Assembly: GCF_003096555.1 (NCBI RefSeq)
Contig: NZ_QEKM01000001.1
Location: 1,054,001 to 1,118,000 of the forward strand
DNA from: Simplicispira sp. 125
GTDB taxonomy: Bacteria; Pseudomonadota; Gammaproteobacteria; Burkholderiales; Burkholderiaceae_C
Direction: 5' to 3'
DNA length: 64,000 nucleotides
Shown: piece by piece, positions 3,244 to 64,000 of the stretch
Layout of the letters: each line of letters starts with the position of its first letter
How positions within the stretch are numbered: position 1 is the first letter of the stretch
Notes under the pieces: generated by a model
Seen by the model: only the letters and a program-made list of their open reading frames with translations
Databases searched by the model: none
What the model was told of the DNA's origin: nothing
Translations under genes and position numbers: made by a program

Positions 3244-4212
3244 ATGCAAGTGAGCGCAGGAAAAATCGTTGTTTTGGGCACAGGCGGAACCATCGCAGGC
3301 AAAGCGTCTGTAGCGGGTGACAACATTGGGTATGTGGCGGGACAGGTGGATGTGCAGGAACTGCTGGAGGCTGTGCCCGGACTGGTGCAGGCGGCCCAGG
3401 GGCCGCTGCAGGTGGAGCAGGTCGCGCAGATCGATAGCAAGGACATGGAGTTTTCGGTCTGGGCTGACCTCGCGATCCGGTGCCGCCGCTATCTGGCCGA
3501 CGAAACGGTGCGCGCCATCGTGATCACCCACGGCACGGATACCCTGGAAGAGACGGCTTGGTTTCTGCACTCGGTGCTGGATGCCGCTAAGCCGGTGGTG
3601 CTGACCTGTGCTATGCGCCCCGCCACCGCTATGGCTCCAGACGGGCCGCAAAACCTGCTGGATGCCATGGCCGTGGCCACGGCGCCGGGAGCCTGCGGCG
3701 TACTGGCCGTGTGCGCTGGGGTGGTACATGGTGCGCGACAGGTGCGAAAAGTCCATCCCTACCGGGTGGATGCGTTTGGTTCCGACGAAACAGGCCCTCT
3801 GGGCTGGATCGAGGAAGGGCATGTGCGATGGGCACAAAATAGGCCTGTAGCGCTTATGGGATGGGCGCAATCAGCTCTTGAAAAGATAGCTAACGGTGCG
3901 CCTTGGCCGCGTGTAGAGATCGTCATGAATTACGCTGGCGCCCGTGGTGCCACGGTGGACGCTCTGGTGGGCGACGGCGTGCAGGGCTTGGTAGTCGCCG
4001 CCACTGGAAATGGCAGCCTGCACCATAACTTGCAGGCCGCGCTGGAACATGCGCAGGCCGCGGGCGTAGCCGTGCGTGTGACAACGCGCTGTACCGAGGG
4101 TCAGGTGCTGCCGCGTGCCGGGGCTTCTTTGCCACTGGGCCATGGGCTCAGTCCGGTAAAGGCCCGCGTATCTCTGATGCTGGAACTGCTCGGCGGCGGC
4201 GTTCCGGCCTGA
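3244..4212 (+). CDS. L-asparaginase family protein
   Basis: A 322-residue asparaginase of the AnsA/AnsB superfamily, hydrolysing L-asparagine to aspartate and ammonia. The first catalytic threonine is in 'VVLGTGGTIAGK' and the second Thr-Asp pair in 'ITHGTDTLEETAWFLH'; 'AMRPATAMAPDGPQNL' follows as in the family. No convincing signal peptide is visible, so a cytoplasmic location is likely. The ATG at 3244 is given, but the GTG at 3250 has a better ribosome site (AGGGG, 6 bases upstream). It starts 12 bases past a LexA box, so SOS repression is possible. Around 3845-3894 the coding sequence resembles the dispersed palindromic element seen across the window. Confidence 0.92.
   Translation: MQVSAGKIVVLGTGGTIAGKASVAGDNIGYVAGQVDVQELLEAVPGLVQAAQGPLQVEQVAQIDSKDMEFSVWADLAIRCRRYLADETVRAIVITHGTDTLEETAWFLHSVLDAAKPVVLTCAMRPATAMAPDGPQNLLDAMAVATAPGACGVLAVCAGVVHGARQVRKVHPYRVDAFGSDETGPLGWIEEGHVRWAQNRPVALMGWAQSALEKIANGAPWPRVEIVMNYAGARGATVDALVGDGVQGLVVAATGNGSLHHNLQAALEHAQAAGVAVRVTTRCTEGQVLPRAGASLPLGHGLSPVKARVSLMLELLGGGVPA
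3845..3894. repeat. Element-like segment inside the asparaginase gene
   Basis: Contains GGCCTGTAGCGCTTATGG followed by AAAAGATAGC, the same blocks in the same relative arrangement as intergenic copies of the GATAGC/TAGCGCTT element (reverse orientation). It stays in frame and encodes part of 'RPVALMGWAQSALEKIANG'. Weaker than the xseA copies. Confidence 0.45.
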
Positions 4213-6121: not shown

Positions 6122-7165
6122 TCAGGAAGGTGATGATAGCGAGCGAGCCCTGGCACGGGCTAGCAGGGCATCGAGGGCGATAAAGAAGCCGTCATCGATG
6201 GCTGTACGCAGCGGTACCGCCAGCGCATCGGGGTGGTATTGCCATAATTTAACGGCGTCTTTTTCAGTGCAAATAAGCGTGTAAGGCTTATCCTTTGGGC
6301 GGTTCCAGCTATCAAAATTAGAGTGATCTGGCAGCCCCTGCATTTGCGCCAACGGCAACCCCAGAGATTGCAGCATGGTAAAAAAATCCTGGGGCCTGGC
6401 AATGCCTGCCACGGCCAGCAGCGGCTGTTGGTGCAGGTCGGCCAGGGGGACACGCTGTCCGTCGGCACGCAGCGCAAAGTCGGCCAGTGAGCGCTGCAGT
6501 GCAAACGCTGGCGCGCCACTGTCAGCCACGGCGGACCCGGCATGCACCACCAGATCGACCGGGCGAGGCCAGGATTCGCGCAGCGGGCCTGCGGGCAAAA
6601 GGAACCCGTTGCCCGTGCCCAGGTCGTTAAAAACACAAATTTCAATGTCTCGCGCCAGCGCCAAGTGCTGCAGCCCGTCATCGCAGACGATGACATCGGT
6701 GTCCGGGTGCTGCGCCAAGATCAGCTGCACCGCAGCAATGCGCTGCGCTGCCACGGCCACGGGCACAGCACATTGGCGGGCGATCAATGCTGGTTCGTCG
6801 CCGACCTCGCGGGCGGGACTGCTGGCATATGCCATGCGGCAATCTTGCGTGCTGCGCCCGTAGCCCCGTGAGACCACGCCCGGGTGCCAGCCCTGCGCCT
6901 GCAGGTGGCGCACCACGGCCATGACCACGGGCGTCTTGCCCGCGCCGCCTGCCACCACATTGCCCACCACCACCACGGGCACGCCCGGGTGCTCGGCCCG
7001 CAGTACGCGGGCCCGGTAGAGCATGCGGCGCAGCGCCACGGCCAGGCCCATCAGCAGCGACAGGGGCCACAGCAGCCATGCGAGCCATCCACGCTGGCGC
7101 CAGGCACGCTGCAGCACCGATCCAGGCGCCAGATTAGAAGAGGGAGAGAGTGGGGGCTGCGGCAT
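6122..7165 (-). CDS. lpxK: Tetraacyldisaccharide 4'-kinase
   Basis: 347 residues. It phosphorylates the lipid A precursor at the 4' position on the inner face of the cytoplasmic membrane. An N-terminal membrane-associated segment (residues about 27-45) precedes the Walker A motif GGAGKT at residues 73-78. '[19 protein letters not shown]' carries the conserved DDG(L/F)QH block, and '[10 protein letters not shown]' is near the C-terminus. It follows exbD by 18 bases and precedes the Trm112-like gene by 25 bases in one operon. The stretch near 6281-6325, encoding '[15 protein letters not shown]', is AT-richer than its surroundings and shares TTTTGATAGCTGG with the dispersed element. Confidence 0.97.
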
Positions 7166-8621: not shown

Positions 8622-9947
8622 ATGTTTGACCCCCAAAACAACGCCCTGGCGCCACGTATCTGGGAAGTTGGCGCGCTATGCCGCGCCGTGGCTGATGCTT
8701 TGCAGGCGCGCTTCAATCCGGTCGCGGTGCGCGGAGAGATCACCGGCTTTTCGCGCGCATCCAGCGGGCATTGCTACTTTTCCATCAAGGACACGCAGGG
8801 GCAGATCCGCTGCGCCATGTTCCGCAGCGCTGCCAGCCGCCTCGACTTTGTGCCGCGCGACGGTGAACTGGTCGAGTTGCGCGGGCGCCTGGGCGTGTAC
8901 GAGGCGCGTGGCGACCTGCAGCTCGTTGTAGAAAGCCTGCAGCGGGCCGGCCAAGGTGCTTTGTTTGAACAGTTTTTGCGCCTGAAGGCCCGGCTGGAGG
9001 CTGAAGGCCTGTTCGACACGGCCCGCAAACGCCCGCTGCCCCTGATGCCGCGCGGCATTGGCCTGGTCACCTCGCCCGGTGCCGCAGCCTTACACGACGT
9101 GGTGACGGCGTTGCGTCGGCGGGTTCCCCATCTGCCCGTGGTGCTGGTGCCAGCACTGGTGCAGGGCGAAGGCGCGGCACCATCCTTGTGCACAGCGCTA
9201 TCAAAACTGTATCTGATGGCGCAAGCTGGGCAAGCGCCAGGGGCCGATTTGGCTAAAAATCCTCCAATCGATGCGATCTTGCTGGTGCGTGGTGGTGGCT
9301 CCATCGAAGACTTGTGGGCCTTCAATGACGAGCAACTGGCCCGCACCATCGTGCAAAGCCCTGTGCCGGTGGTCAGTGGCGTGGGGCACGAAACCGACTT
9401 CACCGTGGCCGACTTCTGTGCCGATCTGCGGGCGCCCACCCCTACAGCCGCCGCCGAACTGGTGGCCCAGCCACGCGGCGTGTGGCTGGGTGCGCTGGAC
9501 CTGCTGGCAACGCGGCTGGGCGACGGCGTGCAGCGCCAGATCGAGCAGCGCAGCCAGCGCCTGGACCAAGTGGCCGCACGCTTGGGCCGTCCGTCGGGCC
9601 TGGTGGTGCGCGAACAGCAACGCAGCGCCCGCCTGGCCGAGCGCATGCGCCGTGCAGTGCTATTGAAAATGCAGCTTCTCGCGCACAACCAGCAAGCGCT
9701 AGAGGCTGATTTTTTAGTAAAGATGCAGCAAAACCTGGCCGATCATCGCCAGCGCCTGGAGCGCGCTGCCTTGCGCCTGCAGTTGCTCGATCCGTACCTG
9801 GTACTGCAGCGCGGCTACGCCCTGCTCAGCGATAGCCAGGGCCACGCGGTGACCAGCGTGCAGCAAACCCAGCCCGGCGCCGCCTTGCAGGCCACGCTGG
9901 CCGATGGCGCGCTCGACCTGGTAGTGCAGCCGCCCAAGCCACGGTAG
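8622..9947 (+). CDS. xseA: Exodeoxyribonuclease VII large subunit
   Basis: 441 residues. It degrades single-stranded DNA with the XseB subunit. The N-terminal OB fold is recognisable in '[23 protein letters not shown]' (residues about 33-57), the catalytic core in '[18 protein letters not shown]' and '[30 protein letters not shown]', and a coiled-coil C-terminus follows. Odd: between the core strands (about residues 192-213) there is an insert, '[18 protein letters not shown]' and following residues, encoded by a copy of the dispersed palindromic element, and a second element-like stretch lies around residues 347-366. xseB is not adjacent. Confidence 0.96.
9194..9260. repeat. Dispersed palindromic element, in-frame copy 1 in xseA
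   Basis: Contains AGCGCTATCAAAA at one end and AAGCGCCAGGGGCCGATTT at the other, the two conserved half-elements of the intergenic repeat. It encodes an insert at a loop between conserved exonuclease VII blocks without breaking the frame. Confidence 0.7.
9659..9718. repeat. Dispersed palindromic element, in-frame copy 2 in xseA
   Basis: Contains GCTATTGAAAATGCAGCTTC and CAAGCGCTAGAGGCTGATTT; the second block is nearly identical to the right half of intergenic copies such as 41706-41757. It encodes part of the helical C-terminal region. Confidence 0.65.
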
Positions 9948-16727: not shown

Positions 16728-16783
16728 TTTGATAGCTGCCAGCGCTTTACAGCTAAGCGCTAGAGGCCAAAATGGCTTGAATT
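16728..16783. repeat. Dispersed palindromic element
   Basis: TTGATAGCTGCCAGCGCTTTA at the left (20 of these bases conserved elsewhere) and AAGCGCTAGAGGCC at the right, ending exactly at the stop codon of the DUF488 gene. Confidence 0.85.
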
Positions 16784-17637: not shown

Positions 17638-17697
17638 GGGTGTGGATGAAATAGGCCGCTAACGCTGATGCATCAATCGCCAGAAGCTATGAAAAAC

Positions 17698-18894: not shown

Positions 18895-18952
18895 TTTTGA
18901 TAGCTGCTTGCGCTTACAGAATAAGTACTGGAGCCTGATTTGACTTCAATTT
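18895..18952. repeat. Dispersed palindromic element
   Basis: TTGATAGCTGCTTGCGCTTAC ... ACTGGAGCCTGATTTGA (first block shares 17 or more bases with other copies). It lies just upstream of the acyl-CoA dehydrogenase start. Confidence 0.75.
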
Positions 18953-24059: not shown

Positions 24060-24108
24060 GTTTGATAGCTTCTTGCGCTTTATGGGAAAGCCCTGAAGGC
24101 CGATTTAG
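24060..24108. repeat. Dispersed palindromic element
   Basis: TTTGATAGCTTCTTGCGCTT at the left and CTGAAGGCCGATTTAG at the right; the right end abuts the metE stop codon. Confidence 0.8.
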
Positions 24109-26484
24109 TTACAGACTCATTTCTTCTTCCAGCCGCGCCCGCACCGCGTGCGCGGCCTGCACCATGTGGGCCAGCGCGGCTTCGGTTTCGGGCCAGCTGC
24201 GGGTTTTGAGGCCGCAGTCGGGGTTGACCCACAGGTTGCCTACGGGCACCACTTCGGCGGCTTTTTCGAGCAGCGCGGTCATCTCGCCCACGCCGGGCAC
24301 GCGCGGCGAGTGGATGTCGTACACGCCGGGGCCGATTTCGTTGGGGTATTGGAACTGGCCAAAGCCGTGCAGCAGTTCCATGTCCGAGCGGCTGGTTTCG
24401 ATGGTGATGACGTCGGCATCCATGGAGGCGATGGCCGGCAGGATGTCGTTGAACTCGCTGTAGCACATGTGGGTGTGGATTTGCGTGTCGTCGCGCACGC
24501 CGCTGGCCGCGATGCGAAAGGCGCGCGTGGCCCAGGCCAGGTAGGGTTGACCACCGGCTTTGCGCAGGGGCAGGCCTTCGCGAATGGCGGGCTCGTCGAT
24601 CTGGATCACGGCAATGCCGGCGGCTTCCAGGTCGCTCACTTCGTCGCGGATAGCCCAGGCGATCTGTTCGGCGGTCTGGCTGCGCGGCTGGTCGTCGCGT
24701 ACGAAGCTCCACTGCAGGATGGTGATGGGGCCGGTCAGCATGCCCTTCATGGGCTTGTCGGTCAGGCTTTGGGCGTAGCGCGTCCAGGCCACCGTCATGG
24801 GCGCGGGGCGGGCCACGTCGCCATAAATGATGGGCGGCTTGACGCAGCGCGAGCCGTAGCTTTGCACCCAGCCGTTCTGTGTAAAGGCAAAGCCGTCGAG
24901 CTGCTCGCCAAAGTATTCGACCATGTCGTTGCGCTCGGCTTCGCCGTGCACCAGCACGTCCAGGCCCAGGGCTTCCTGCTTGCGCACGGCCAGGGCGATT
25001 TCTGCTTCCATGCTGCGCTGGTAGTGCGCGGCGCTCAGCGTGCCGCGCTTGAAGCTGGCGCGGGCCGCGCGGATTTCGGTGGTCTGCGGAAACGAGCCGA
25101 TGGTGGTGGTGGGCAGCAGGGGCAGTTGCAGGCGCGCGCGCTGCGCCTGCTGGCGCACGGCAAAGCGGCTGCTGCGCTGGTCGGCGCCAGGGGCGGCAGC
25201 GGCCAGGCGGGCCGCCACCGTGGCGCGGTGCGCGCGCGGGCTGGCGTGGCGGGCGGCCAGGGCCGCGCGCGCGGCGGCCAGTTCGGGGCCGACGGCCGCT
25301 TCGCCCTGGGTGAGGGCGCTGGCCAGCAGGCGCAGTTCGCCCAGCTTTTCAACGGCAAAGGCCAGCCAGGAGCGGACTTCGGGGTCGAGCGCGGTTTCGG
25401 CCGCCAGGCTGAACGGCACATGCAGCAGCGAGCACGAGGGCGCCAGCCACAGCGCGCCCTGGTGTTTTTGCAGCACCGGCGCCAGGCGCGCCAGGGCGGC
25501 ATCGAGGTCGGTGCGCCAGATGTTGCGGCCATCGACCACGCCCACCGACAGCACCTTGTGCGAGGGCAGCCAGTCGGCCACGCCGACCAGCTCTTCGGGG
25601 GCGCGCACGGCGTCCACGTGCAGGCCGGCCACCGGCAGCTGGCAGGCCAGGCGCAGGTTCTCCGACAGCGGCGAGAAGTACGTCGCCAGCAGCAGTTGGG
25701 GCGCGCTGCGGGCCAGTTGCCAGTAGGCGGGCTCAAAAGCGTGGCGCCAGGCTGCGGGCAAGTCCAGGCCCAGGATGGGCTCGTCGATCTGCACCCATTG
25801 CACGCCCTGCGCCTTCAGGCGCGCCAGCACGGCTTCGTACACCGACAGCAATGGCTCCAGCAGCGTGAAGCGGTCAAAACCGGCCTCTTTGGATTTGCCC
25901 AGCCACAAAAAGCTCAGCGGCCCCAGCAGCACGGCCTTGACCGGGTGGCCCAGCGCCTGCGCTTCTTGCACTTCATCAAACAGGCGCTCGCTGGCCACGC
26001 GGAACGTGGTGGTCGCGCTGAACTCGGGCACCAGGTAGTGGTAGTTGGTGTCAAACCACTTGGTCATCTCCAGCGCGGGCTGGCCGTCGGTAGCGTGCGC
26101 TGCGGTGCAGCCGGGGCTGCAGCCTTCGTGGGCGGTGGCACCGGCCGACACACCGCGCGCCATGGCGAAGTAGCGGTCCAGTTCAGGCGTGTCGGCGCCC
26201 AACGCAAAACGTGCGGGCTCGCAGCCCAGCAGTTGGATGTGGTTGGCCACATGGTCGTACAGGGCGAAGTCGCCCACGGTGACAAAACCCAGGCCCGCGT
26301 CGGCCTGCGCTTGCCAGTGCTTCTGGCGCAGCTGGGTAGCGGTGGTCTGCAGGTCGGCGGCGGTGCGGTCGCCGCGCCAGTGCGATTCGAGCGCAAATTT
26401 CAGTTCGCGCTGTGCGCCCATGCGTGGGAAGCCCAAGGTGTGGGTGAGCACGGGGCGGGAGGGCGAGAGCGCGGCTTGCGACAT
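24109..26484 (-). CDS. metE: Cobalamin-independent methionine synthase
   Basis: 791 residues. It transfers a methyl group from methyltetrahydropteroyl-triglutamate to homocysteine in the cytoplasm. The zinc ligands are in '[11 protein letters not shown]' and '[13 protein letters not shown]'; '[14 protein letters not shown]' starts the C-terminal barrel. It is about 40 residues longer than the E. coli enzyme, partly through an insert near residues 128-145 ('[19 protein letters not shown]') between conserved 'YFAMARG' and '[12 protein letters not shown]'. It is divergent from metR (107-base gap), the classic MetR-activated arrangement. Confidence 0.97.
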
Positions 26485-27909: not shown

Positions 27910-27965
27910 TATTAAAAAAATAGCTTCTAGCGCTTGTGTATAGGGCGCTAGAAGCTATTTTTGTT
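27910..27965. repeat. Dispersed palindromic element forming a terminator
   Basis: AAAAATAGCTTCTAGCGC (27916-27933) and its perfect complement (27945-27962) around an 11-base loop: an 18-base stem ending in T residues on both strands. It lies between the convergent DUF2789 and MFS genes and should work as a bidirectional terminator. Confidence 0.85.
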
Positions 27966-35244: not shown

Positions 35245-35296
35245 ACTATTTAATTAATAGCATATAGCGCTTCACTGGTGGGCTTTTAAGGCTGTT
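35245..35296. repeat. Dispersed palindromic element, diverged copy
   Basis: TAATTAATAGCATATAGCGCTTC ending in TTTTAAGGCTGTTTT (blocks of under 20 bases shared with 47971-48040). It abuts the stop codon of the lyase gene. Confidence 0.6.
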
Positions 35297-36160
35297 TTAC
35301 CGGTATTTTTCTTCTAGCGCATCCCACCCAGGTTTGCCCACCAGGCGCTGGCGTTCGGCAAACGGCGTGACCAGGGCGGGGTCTTCACGCAGGCTGTGGG
35401 TGTCGCGCAGCACCGTCAGCGCTTTTTGCATGCCGGCCACAGCGGCTTGCAGGGCGGCGTTGGCGTACAACACCAGGCCATAGCCCAGGCCGCCCAGCTC
35501 GTCAGCGCCGAAGAGGGGTGTTTTGCCGCCGATCACCATATTCATCAGCTGGGGCTTGTCCAGGCGCTGGGGCAGGGCGCGGATTTCGCTCTCGGTGGTG
35601 ACGGCTTCCACGAACAGAATGTCGGCGCCGGCTTCGCTGTAGCGCTGGGCGCGCTCCACCGCAGCCTCGAAACCATGCATGGCGCAGGCATCGGTGCGGG
35701 CCATGATGAGGGTGTCGCCATTGCGCCGGGCATCGGTAGCCGCCTTGATTTTGCCGACCATCTCGGCGGCCGATAGGACTTCCTTGCCGTTGAAATGCCC
35801 GCAGCGCTTCGGTGAAACCTGGTCTTCGAGCTGGATGCAATCGGCCCCGGCGCGCTCAAGCGTGCGCACGGCGTGGTAGGTGTTGAGCGCGTTGCCAAAG
35901 CCGGTGTCGGCGTCCACGATCAGCGGCAGCTCCACGGCGTCGTGGATGCGGGCGGTGTGGTCGGCAATGTCCGTGAGGCCCATGAACGCCTGGTCGGGCA
36001 GGCCGAACCACATGTTGGTCACCCCGGCGCCAGTGACGTAGATCGCCTCATACCCCAGGTCGGCCACCACGCGGGCAGAAAGGGCGTTGAACGCGCCGGG
36101 CACGATGACGCCACGGCGCGCGTTGGCCAGGGCCTTGAGTTGTTGTTGGGTGCTGGTCAT
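35297..36160 (-). CDS. Isocitrate lyase/PEP mutase superfamily protein, PrpB-like
   Basis: 287 residues. A TIM-barrel lyase: 'PGAFNALSARVVADLGYEAIYVTGAGV' at the N-terminus, the Mg-site block 'LPLIVDADTGFG' and the active-site loop 'QLEDQVSPKRCGHFNGKEV' with the catalytic Cys of the KRCGH motif. Family members include 2-methylisocitrate lyase (PrpB), oxaloacetate decarboxylase and carboxy-PEP mutase. Position next to prpR, under an apparent sigma-54 promoter, favours a methylisocitrate-lyase role, but the sequence is not a textbook PrpB. Start at ATG 36160; the longer frame is not family-like. Confidence 0.85.
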   Translation of the reverse strand: MTSTQQQLKALANARRGVIVPGAFNALSARVVADLGYEAIYVTGAGVTNMWFGLPDQAFMGLTDIADHTARIHDAVELPLIVDADTGFGNALNTYHAVRTLERAGADCIQLEDQVSPKRCGHFNGKEVLSAAEMVGKIKAATDARRNGDTLIMARTDACAMHGFEAAVERAQRYSEAGADILFVEAVTTESEIRALPQRLDKPQLMNMVIGGKTPLFGADELGGLGYGLVLYANAALQAAVAGMQKALTVLRDTHSLREDPALVTPFAERQRLVGKPGWDALEEKYR

Positions 36161-40359: not shown

Positions 40360-40381
40360 CTGCTTTTTGTGCACATCATTT

Positions 40382-40432
40382 TTGATAGCTGCTAGCGCAC
40401 GTCTATCAAGCGTTTCAGGGGTATTTCATATA
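40382..40432. repeat. Dispersed palindromic element
   Basis: TTTGATAGCTGCTAGCGCA ... TCAAGCGTTTCAGGGG, between the SIR2 gene and the end of prpF. Confidence 0.75.
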
Positions 40433-41705: not shown

Positions 41706-41757
41706 ATTTGATAGCTGCTAGCGCTTGTGGGTATTGGGCTAGAGGCTAATTTTGTTG
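41706..41757. repeat. Dispersed palindromic element
   Basis: TTTGATAGCTGCTAGCGCTT at the left and GGGCTAGAGGCTAATTTTG at the right, one of the best-preserved copies, upstream of prpF. Confidence 0.85.
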
Positions 41758-42064: not shown

Positions 42065-42119
42065 ATTTGATAGCTGCCAGCGCTTGTCACGCCTGGGTTA
42101 GAGCCTTATTTGGCTCATT
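42065..42119. repeat. Dispersed palindromic element overlapping the 3' end of acnD
   Basis: TTTGATAGCTGCCAGCGCTT at the left; the right half encodes the last ten residues of AcnD (NEPNKALTQA) and its stop codon. Confidence 0.8.
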
Positions 42120-47970: not shown

Positions 47971-48040
47971 ATTGAAAAGCTATAAAAATAATAGCTATTA
48001 GCGCTTTACCATAAAGCGTTTTAAGCTGTTTTTGCTTAAA
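47971..48040. repeat. Dispersed palindromic element
   Basis: AATAATAGCTATTAGCGCTT then CATAAAGCGTTTTAAGCTG, between the convergent regulator and DUF1501 genes, ending within 10 bases of the DUF1501 stop codon. It probably acts as a terminator hairpin. Confidence 0.75.
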
Positions 48041-54963: not shown

Positions 54964-55145
54964 AATGCAACACCCTCCTGAGTCGCTTCGCGCCTTCCCC
55001 CTGCTCTCGCCTCGCTGCGCGATGCGGGCAGAGGGACGCCCCCAGCGCCCGGATATCGGCATGTGGGCGGCCCTTGCGCGGGGGCCGCTGGTCTGGGCAG
55101 CGCCCGTTTCATGCGTCGCGGGTGGCGAGACGCTCCCCGCGATAC
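54964..55145 (+). repeat. GC-rich dispersed repeat, copy A
   Basis: Reads CCTGAGTCGCTTCGCGCCTT, then GGGACGCCCCCAGCGCCCGG, GCGGCCCTTGCGCGGGGGCC and GCCCGTTTCATGCG in order. Copy B (56285-56457) has the same blocks. It fills the smc-zipA gap. Confidence 0.85.
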
Positions 55146-55168: not shown

Positions 55169-59570
<4,402 letters not shown>

Positions 59571-61818: not shown

Positions 61819-61870
61819 ATTTGATAGCTGCTAGCGCTTACCCATCAAGCGCTTGAGCCACTTTTGACTC
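61819..61870. repeat. Dispersed palindromic element (start of the duplicated unit)
   Basis: TTTGATAGCTGCTAGCGCTT then ATCAAGCGCTTGAGCCACTT, just before the PBP fragment. A shortened partner copy precedes the intact gene at 63018-63056. Confidence 0.85.
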
Positions 61871-61878
61871 CAAACCTC

Positions 61879-62310
61879 ATGTTTTTCCCTGCTTTCCTGC
61901 GCACGCGCTGGGCCGCGTTGCGGCTGGCGTTCGCGCGTGCCTTGCAGCGGCCCGAAAAGCTGCTGTCGCTGCACAGCCTGCTCTGGGCGCTGATGGCCGC
62001 AGGGCTGACGCTGCTGCTGTATGTGCTGGTGCTGATTCCGTTCACGCCGGGCATCCGCGACATTCGCAAGGCCAAGACGGAGCAGCCGGCGCAGTTGGTG
62101 GCGGCGGCTGGCAAGCTGCTGGCCGAATACCGCTGGGTGAACCGCGCGTGGGTGCCGCTCAGCGAGATTGCCTCGCCGGTGGTGGACGCGCTGATTGCCA
62201 CCGCGGACCACCGCTTCTATGGCAACTGGGGCCTGGACTGGCGGCGCACGGCGTCGGCGCTGGTGCGTACGCTGGGGGGCGACAAGCAGGGCGGCTCCAC
62301 CATTACGTAG
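61879..62310 (+). pseudogene. Truncated 5' copy of the penicillin-binding protein gene
   Basis: 143 codons aligning with the start of the intact PBP gene at 63064: 'FPAFLRTRWAALR', the membrane helix, 'IPFTPGIRDIRKAKTEQPAQLV' and on to 'GGDKQGGSTIT', where CAG of the intact gene is TAG here and similarity stops. The glycosyltransferase catalytic motif is damaged: 'EDHRFYSHWG' in the intact gene is 'ADHRFYGNWG' here, losing the catalytic Glu. Clearly non-functional as a transglycosylase. Confidence 0.9.
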
Positions 62311-63004: not shown

Positions 63005-63017
63005 AGTGGATTCCGTT

Positions 63018-63056
63018 GACGCTTGCCCATCAAACGCTTGAGCCAATTTTGACCCA
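63018..63056. repeat. Dispersed palindromic element, partial copy
   Basis: ACGCTTGCCCATCAAACGCT then TGAGCCAATTTTGA, matching the right part of the copy at 61819-61870; the GATAGCTGCTA left end is missing, cut at the junction with the lipoprotein gene. Confidence 0.75.
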
Positions 63057-63063
63057 AATTCCC

Positions 63064-64000
63064 ATGTCTTTCCCTGCTTTCCTGCGCACGCGCTGGGCCG
63101 CGCTGCGGCCGGTGTGGGCGCGCCTGCTGCAGCGGCCCGAAAAGCTGCTGTCGCTGCACAGCCTGCTCTGGGCGCTCATCGCCGCCGGGCTGGCGATGGT
63201 GATGTATGTGCTGGTGCTGATCCCGTTCACGCCGGGCATCCGCGATATCCGCAAGGCCAAGACGGAGCAGCCGGCGCAGTTGGTGGCGTTTGACGGCAAG
63301 CTGCTGGCCGAATACCGCTGGGTGAACCGCGCCTGGGTGCCGCTCAGCGAGATCGCCCCGCCGGTGGTGGATGCGCTGATCGCCACCGAGGACCATCGGT
63401 TTTATAGCCACTGGGGCCTGGACTGGCGCCGCACCGCGTCGGCGGTGGTGCACACGCTGGGGGGCGACAAGCAGGGCGGCTCCACCATTACGCAGCAGCT
63501 GGCGCGCAACCTGTACCCGGAGGACATTGGCCGCGCGCCCACGCTCACGCGCAAGATCAAGGAGGCGATCACGGCGCTGAAGATCGAGGCGCTGTACTCC
63601 AAGGACGAGATCCTGGAGACCTACCTGAACACCGTGCCCTTCCTCTACAACGCTTACGGCATCGAGATGGCGGCGCGCACGTATTTCGACAAGTCGGCCG
63701 ACGAGCTCAACGTGCTGGAGAGCGCCACGCTCATCGGCATGCTCAAGGGCACGGCCTACTACAACCCGGTGCTCAACCCCGAGCGCGCCCAGGCCCGGCG
63801 CAACACCGTGCTGGCGCAGATGAAGAAGCGCGGCAAGCTGGCCGAGGCGGAGTACGCCGCGCTCAGCAAGCGCCCGCTGCGCATCCGCTTCGAGCGCCAG
63901 GTGGAGGCGGCCGGCCCCGCGCCGCACCTGGCGCAGCAACTGCGCAAGCAGCTCATCGACTGGGCCGACCGCAACGGCTACAGCCTGTATGCCGATGGGC
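63064..64000 (+). CDS. Penicillin-binding protein 1A/1C-like transglycosylase (3' end beyond window)
   Basis: 312 N-terminal residues visible. A membrane helix at about 38-58 ('SLLWALIAAGLAMVMYVLVL') is followed by a GT51 peptidoglycan glycosyltransferase domain: catalytic 'ATEDHRFYSHWGLD', 'GGSTITQQLARNLY', 'RKIKEAITALKIEALYSKDEILETYLN' and 'YGIEMAARTYFDKSADELNVLESATLIGMLKG'. A transpeptidase domain is expected downstream but not seen. It polymerises glycan strands from lipid II in the periplasm. A broken duplicate of its 5' end lies 1.2 kb upstream. Confidence 0.93.
   Translation, partial: MSFPAFLRTRWAALRPVWARLLQRPEKLLSLHSLLWALIAAGLAMVMYVLVLIPFTPGIRDIRKAKTEQPAQLVAFDGKLLAEYRWVNRAWVPLSEIAPPVVDALIATEDHRFYSHWGLDWRRTASAVVHTLGGDKQGGSTITQQLARNLYPEDIGRAPTLTRKIKEAITALKIEALYSKDEILETYLNTVPFLYNAYGIEMAARTYFDKSADELNVLESATLIGMLKGTAYYNPVLNPERAQARRNTVLAQMKKRGKLAEAEYAALSKRPLRIRFERQVEAAGPAPHLAQQLRKQLIDWADRNGYSLYADG

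Follow-up and report, generated by a model that had tools for sequence, protein, structure and literature searches.

DNA uptake sequences of Neisseria (DUS) and the Pasteurellaceae (USS) are short motifs of about 9-12 nt that are enriched in genome-maintenance genes, and REP elements are often found at the 3' ends of genes. In passages of PMC2397512, neisserial uptake sequences are described as highly conserved, as residing in the core genome at permissive sites and, in many cases, as deriving from recombination. Most of the REPs shown in part of PMC2817692 start with a GTAG or GTGG tag, and a portion of PMC2229807 gives the palindromic elements of Rickettsia as 105-146 bp long and describes them as inserts. 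Here, we analyzed a dispersed two-arm element in a 64-kb window (positions 1,054,001-1,118,000 of a single 3,966,897-bp contig) of a Comamonadaceae chromosome; the closest named XseA that we found is that of Acidovorax soli (79%). In its behavior, the element resembles a DNA address label for a putative binding protein more than an inserted selfish element. We found no description of the family in the open literature on Comamonadaceae, Acidovorax, betaproteobacterial or Polaromonas/Rhodoferax repeats, and papers that matched strings of the element were, by title and abstract, about other subjects. Excerpts of PMC3733652, PMC2817692 and PMC2755013 make no mention of such repeats in Acidovorax, and the "palindromic repeats" in the excerpt of PMC2755013 are CRISPR.

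Form and copy number of the element

We scanned the window with a 50-position profile that was seeded with ten intergenic window copies and then iterated, and 17 places exceeded the threshold of 14 bits. Intergenic cores lie on the plus strand at 16728..16777 (55.7 bits), 18896..18945 (51.5 bits), 24061..24110 (52.7 bits), 40381..40430 (48.3 bits), 41707..41756 (53.8 bits) and 47987..48036 (57.1 bits), as does the window's most symmetric copy at 27916..27965 (53.3 bits). On the minus strand, an intergenic core directly follows a stop codon (17645..17694, 46.2 bits). Two plus-strand cores sit at gene edges (42066..42115, 48.1 bits; 61820..61869, 59.9 bits) and one is either intergenic or at a gene edge (35253..35302, plus strand, 35.1 bits). 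A degenerate plus-strand copy at 63005..63054 (19.3 bits; 14.3 bits with the intergenic-only profile introduced below) lies at the end of a local duplication of ~300 nt. The duplicated units, 61835-62134 and 63020-63319, are direct repeats 89% identical to each other; one is accompanied by a good element copy, the other by the degenerate copy. The remaining cores lie inside genes and are treated below.

We sampled 1.264 of the 3.967 Mb, namely the window and 60 stretches of 20 kb each; 217 matches in this sample exceeded 14 bits, compared to none in a reversed-sequence control. Extrapolation from this sample gives ~680 copies per chromosome. As placed by our own crude gene caller rather than by annotation, 140 copies are intergenic, 46 lie wholly inside genes (44, plus 2 that come within 30 nt of a gene end) and 31 partly overlap a gene.

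The conserved stretch exceeds the 50-nt profile and runs from about position -11 to +58, or ~70 bp. Its two arms, ATAGCTGCTAGCGCTT on the left and AAGCGCTAGAGGC on the right, are separated by 7 variable bases, and each has an A-tract on its outer side; beyond the tracts lie a CTAT box on the left and an AT-rich box on the right. The profile has an information content of ~50 bits. Conservation along the element is uneven and position-specific; in the left arm, AGC and CGC are 96-100% conserved and the bases in between 52-64%. Among the 140 intergenic copies, the highest pairwise identity is 78% and the median 51%, and near-identical copies are absent. A BLAST search with one copy as query returned no phages and two partial plasmid matches, a weak test given that copies are only ~51% alike. 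One of the two plasmid matches, on a Diaphorobacter plasmid (L240, 301-348), is element-like and lies at the 3' end of cobN.

Arms, orientation and genomic placement

The two arms belong together as one unit: of 188 strong left halves, 178 are accompanied by a right half in register, and on this count we rejected a single half-site as the unit. The arms do not covary. Pairing between them was 69.8%, compared to 69.1% after shuffling (58 copies), and arm-arm covariation showed no consistent excess in 140 copies, the best pair reaching a z of 2.0. Rfam gave sub-threshold matches but none at gathering score in the window. An RNA element was rejected on these two grounds, the Rfam result and the missing covariation.

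The A-tracts follow a rule of their own. The right tract of the 140 copies is TTTT in 54, ATTT in 39 and AAAA in 33, and TpA steps occur there twice where 69 are expected from the columns. The state of the left tract is associated with that of the right (p 0.002), and the states change as blocks, with AA, TT or GG at positions 28-29 and an A- or a T-tract. Descent of subfamilies could account for such block states and would likewise reduce TpA. Neither GC-skew half favors an orientation (55:54 and 52:49). An early plus-strand majority had suggested a replichore-oriented element, yet the matches of the sampled profile are balanced in the skew halves and we dropped the idea. Based on the absence of covariation, the paired halves, the avoidance of TpA and the balanced orientation, a protein reading duplex DNA fits better than a hairpin.

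Copies are enriched at gene 3' ends. Intergenic copies number 43 in 85 convergent gaps, 79 in 372 tandem gaps and 11 in 125 divergent gaps. Their spacing is slightly regular (cv 0.79 versus 0.87, sd 0.05, for random placement), a weak trend. The number of copies per 20 kb rises with GC content (rho 0.71). Six stretches have zero copies, three with GC 0.59-0.60 and three with GC 0.62-0.63; the remaining stretches average 0.63. Stretches L127, L129 and L144 of G000, element-free and with GC 0.59-0.60, are perhaps acquired islands.

Copies inside genes

To judge the coding matches more strictly, we trained a profile solely on the 140 intergenic copies and resampled the genes with synonymous codons in three rounds. 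Of 1039 called genes, 41 exceeded 20 bits with this intergenic-only profile, whereas the same genes after resampling yielded a mean of 1.3 genes above 14 bits. The coding matches are far beyond chance.

The original prediction had placed pairs of half-elements twice in xseA with the reading frame open, and both copies hold up: copy 1 in the variable loop before RGGGS (9205..9254, plus strand) scores 31.0 bits (26.8 intergenic-only) and copy 2 in the coiled-coil region (9667..9716, plus strand) 37.9 bits (35.4 intergenic-only), when resampled genes never exceed 17.1 bits. Further copies had been called probable in ansA and ligA and conceivable in lpxK, and all three are borne out by the intergenic-only profile. 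They lie on the minus strand, in ansA antisense to the gene (3833..3882, 45.2 bits; 43.5 intergenic-only), in ligA near the N-terminus (56486..56535, 40.5 bits; 37.8 intergenic-only) and in lpxK in sense orientation (6267..6316, 34.8 bits; 33.6 intergenic-only). The predicted coordinates were off the 50-nt core by up to ~27 nt. It had also been proposed that the similarity would be due to chance if orthologues lacking the element family carried the same residues. Similar residues without a DNA element do occur (L040 at XseA copy 2; L044 at LpxK, 9.3 bits), but the match at the DNA level exceeds chance, as the resampled genes with their ceiling of 17.1 bits show. Next to ligA, a 138-nt direct repeat with 79% identity (54999-55136 and 56320-56457) flanks the ORF that precedes the gene.

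Reading frames of the 46 internal copies are concentrated in two of the six possible frames (22 and 15 copies), and 20 copies are sense and 26 antisense. The carriers are largely core genes, including xseA, ligA, uvrD, a rarA-like gene, priA, mutS, dnaX and a UvrA-like gene, as well as the genes for IleRS, MetRS, LeuRS, rRNA and tRNA modifying enzymes, HemD, LpxK and AnsA; names beyond the matched families are our own reading. Replication and repair genes make up 8 of 43 carriers and 1 of 50 length-weighted controls (p 0.008), an excess that is not separated from a general core-gene bias and that rests on our own, unblinded classification. Omitting the 5988-nt UvrA-like gene, which is longer than the 500-3600 nt to which control genes were restricted, leaves 7 of 42 carriers versus 1 of 50 controls (p 0.016). 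Among the 43 carriers, L156:17573-19048 was left unclassified and L138:16159-16845 has no family; two control genes have no family at the stricter cut-off used for controls. One gene, L148 12441-18428, encodes a 1996-aa UvrA-like protein and contains three element copies. The mutS match in G011 (L260) contains one TGA.

Protein length at element sites

The element spans 17-23 residues, and its copies in genes had been predicted to be insertions. Protein lengths argue otherwise, being equal or a few residues apart at LpxK, HemD, MutS, IleRS and XseA copy 2. At XseA copy 2, 34 proteins (33 of the 80 loci and the window) align without a gap whether or not they carry the element. All LpxK carriers but one (14 of 15) have 18 residues between DH and TEKD, the exception, L092, having 22; the distance is likewise 18 in 11 of 21 non-carriers and 16-20 in the other ten. 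In all, 25 of 36 anchored loci have 18 residues, 21 of 57 loci being without an anchor. The distance is 16-17 in six outgroup loci, of which four bear the label Sphaerotilaceae. The lpxK of L092, a MAG, combines its 22 residues in place of 18 with a 24.5-bit element match and is possibly a real insertion.

HemD, MutS and IleRS gave similar results when carriers were set against the element-poor genomes. The HemD segment is 38 residues long in 21 of 22 genomes and 42 in G026; of the 22, 20 carry the element and 2 lack it. The MutS segment measures 38 residues in 12 of 12 (9 with and 3 without the element). For IleRS, the 11 of 12 sequences that cover the site all have 38 residues, of which eight exceed 14 bits, one scores 12.8 and two are negative. 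The ECH segment varies from 35 to 42 residues, and all 18 genomes in which it was found are carriers, hence it offers no comparison with non-carriers. Compared to solved structures, the net excess is ~3 residues in AnsA, 2 in LpxK, ~5 in HemD and 1-10 in ECH.

XseA copy 1 is the case that may be most like added sequence, in a loop of variable length. The loop has 40-50 residues in 6 carriers and 26-30 in eight outgroup loci; relatives scoring at or below 0 bits have 26-43 and four just below threshold 40-50 (17 of 61 anchored rows were mis-anchored and excluded). This copy had been predicted to add about 22 residues; the net difference from E. coli XseA is 14 more. Because gains in length stay under 17-23 residues at most sites, the peptide would usually be written over an existing loop or helix. 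In these alignments, the coding copies mostly appear not to be in-frame insertions.

Constraint at the DNA level and positional stability

Between species, we compared codon identity given the same amino acid inside the element and elsewhere in the gene. It was higher inside for HemD (0.854 versus 0.605) and ECH (0.789 versus 0.624), whose carriers were not selected by score. Carriers at XseA, LpxK and AnsA were so selected, which favors a synonymous excess; here the values were 0.736 versus 0.570 for XseA copy 2, 0.667 versus 0.547 for AnsA, 0.671 versus 0.530 for LpxK and, a slight excess, 0.623 versus 0.565 for XseA copy 1. The fourfold codons of LpxK go in the reverse direction (0.399 inside the element, 0.476 outside). 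GC3 is 0.31-0.59 inside the element and 0.74-0.81 outside. Synonymous recoding with each locus's own codon use lowered the score of XseA copy 2 carriers (z 3.1-6.2) and of LpxK carriers above 14 bits (z 1.6-4.1). LpxK in loci without a match gave z values of -1.1 to 1.7, the top values belonging to Delftia and a Variovorax, which is what one would expect of decayed copies. Judged by these codon comparisons, the element appears to be kept at the DNA level inside genes.

The HemD site is carried by 20 of the 22 genomes in which the gene was located and is missing in the element-poor G002 and G004, and the ECH site is carried by 18 of 18. Over wider sets of anchored loci, matches above 14 bits occur at the same place in 19 of 44 for lpxK, the window counted, and in 9 of 42 for xseA copy 2.

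Among intergenic sites, that at 18896 retains its position and orientation in 14 of 18 relatives and is absent in G002, G004, G009 and G024. Identity between its orthologues is 0.83 in the left arm and 0.70 in the right arm, and 0.36 in both the loop and the downstream flank. The site at 17645 is occupied in 9 of 11 relatives with a located gap, with identities of 0.82 and 0.68 in the arms and 0.55 in the loop; in G003 and G021, the element is lacking and the gap measures 16-17 bp. No target duplication was recognised at the single empty site seen. The copy at 16728 is kept in G024, and those at 24061 and 27916 in G030, in each case the sole relative with the gap located. From these orthologues, element sites look positionally stable across the genus.

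Distribution among relatives and candidate factors

Of the 26 genus genomes, 23 yielded at least 112 matches each, and G002, G004 and G007 are element-poor (0, 4-5 and 1). Across the family, represented by one genome per genus, 36 of 120 genomes have a match at E 1e-4 under stricter filters and 84 have none. In 36 of 40 loci, the state of the LpxK site matches that of the remaining element sites there. The XseA tree requires at least 8 changes, of which the starred branches force 3; an independent-pairs test had only 3 pairs on starred branches and no power. Six outgroup loci had no element match. The simplest story would be an element that is ancestral in the Comamonadaceae and has been lost repeatedly as a whole family, although some lineages may have gained it by transfer.

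We searched 13 genus genomes for both Y1_Tnp and element copies. G000 has one Y1_Tnp match, an open frame of 235 aa that scores 75.2 bits against NCBIfam REP_Tyr_transpos, below the cut-off of 80. This REP-associated-transposase-like gene lies on the minus strand at L181 5397-6104 (G000 2,199,396-2,200,103), and a 27.3-bit element copy adjoins its stop codon. However, G003 (99% complete) and G010 (67%) have no Y1_Tnp match, yet at least 149 elements each, and matches are present in the element-poor G002, G004 and G007 (the last 84% complete). A REP-associated tyrosine transposase (RAYT) as the motor was rejected, since Y1_Tnp presence fails to follow copy number across the 13 genomes.

ComEC was found in 23 of 26 genus genomes and in 15 of 15 near-complete ones, the element-poor G002 and G004 included; the genomes without a match, G007, G008 and G026, are 61-84% complete. 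Loss of ComEC as the cause of element loss is unsupported, given its presence in G002 and G004. No protein that binds the element was found.

Discussion

We propose, with a probability of roughly 60%, that the element serves genome-wide as a two-arm recognition signal in double-stranded DNA, is ancient and is kept at the DNA level. A protein or complex would recognize both arms and both A-tracts in the duplex, and selection or a recombination-linked drive would maintain the copies. New coding copies would arise by local replacement of existing sequence rather than by insertion, and loss of the reading factor would let all copies decay together. Several observations count against this proposal. 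The ~50-bit profile exceeds what ~680 sites need, indicating copying from a common ancestor. XseA copy 1 has little codon excess and the fourfold codons of LpxK are reversed; three of the six zero-copy stretches have ordinary GC (0.62-0.63); and ComEC is present in the element-poor G002 and G004.

The alternatives differ in how the copies arose and what keeps them. A small mobile palindrome of the Rickettsia and Wolbachia kind, which enters protein genes in frame and adds a peptide, is unlikely: the element is indeed palindromic, lies between and within genes, is open in two preferred frames and accompanies a longer loop at XseA copy 1, with AnsA, LpxK, HemD and ECH exceeding solved structures by ~3, 2, ~5 and 1-10 residues, yet the length difference between carriers and non-carriers is nil or small at LpxK, MutS, IleRS, HemD and XseA copy 2, near-identical copies are absent and synonymous sites are constrained. 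The copies may instead be remnants of a REP-type element that was dispersed long ago by a REP-associated tyrosine transposase, has decayed and was later co-opted here and there. The Y1_Tnp match of G000 with its 27.3-bit neighbor, the enrichment at gene 3' ends and the ~50 bits of common sequence speak for such an origin, but the arms lack covariation, conservation is very uneven, G003 and G010 are rich without a Y1_Tnp match and G002, G004 and G007 are poor with matches; on balance we consider it doubtful.

Other readings concern function in place. The A-tract rule, the preference for convergent gaps and the slightly regular spacing are what one might see at a site of chromosome structure or topology lying mostly after genes, for example a nucleoid-protein or gyrase site comparable to enterobacterial BIMEs. 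We regard this as rather improbable, as universal proteins such as gyrase leave unexplained both the 84 of 120 family genomes without a match and the genus members with 0, 4-5 and 1 copies. Very improbable is an intrinsic transcription terminator repeated many times over: an inverted repeat with an AT-tract at gene 3' ends has the right appearance, but compensatory pairing is not in excess among 140 copies, AAAA makes up about a quarter of the right tracts, and copies inside core genes occur in both orientations (20 sense, 26 antisense).

In its behavior, the closest match to the proposed recognition signal is a DNA uptake or recombination signal, by analogy with known systems. We tentatively entertain an undescribed uptake or recombination signal of the Comamonadaceae that would enter core and genome-maintenance genes by homologous replacement, reshape protein sequence there while leaving protein length unchanged, and be lost as a whole with its receptor.

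If the recognition-signal reading is right, a demand at the DNA level, unrelated to the proteins, shapes short stretches of many core enzymes such as DNA ligase, MutS, UvrD, exonuclease VII, LpxK and aminoacyl-tRNA synthetases across a large family of environmental bacteria. This would caution against taking such segments for protein adaptation, would provide a ready test set for the balance of overlapping DNA and protein constraints and would call for a protein that reads the site. The genus has near relatives with and without the family, and the factor could therefore be sought by gene-content comparison.

Among known systems, Correia/NEMIS elements of Neisseria and other MITEs are likewise small palindromic repeats, some of them fused in frame (part of PMC2229807), but near-identical copies are absent here and no target duplication was recognised at the single empty site. 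REP elements, too, are high-copy palindromes and are reported inside coding regions in part of PMC3733652; unlike REPs, the majority consensus here has no GTAG or GTGG tag, and the transposase does not follow copy number in the genus. The Rickettsia palindromic elements and their Wolbachia counterparts share palindromy, many copies and an open frame in conserved protein genes, as set out in part of PMC2229807. Their equivalent in a beta-proteobacterium, as the original prediction had it, describes our element well in being palindromic, dispersed and open in frame inside genes, but not in general in-frame insertion; here most of the sites compared show little or no change in protein length, and synonymous positions are under constraint. 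Uptake sequences, both the DUS of Neisseria and the USS of the Pasteurellaceae, resemble the element in their many copies in intergenic and coding DNA and in favoring one orientation within reading frames (PMC2346458). They differ in that ComEC presence here fails to follow element copies and in that the element is ~70 bp long with two arms occurring together. This two-arm 70-bp form is unlike any uptake signal known to us.
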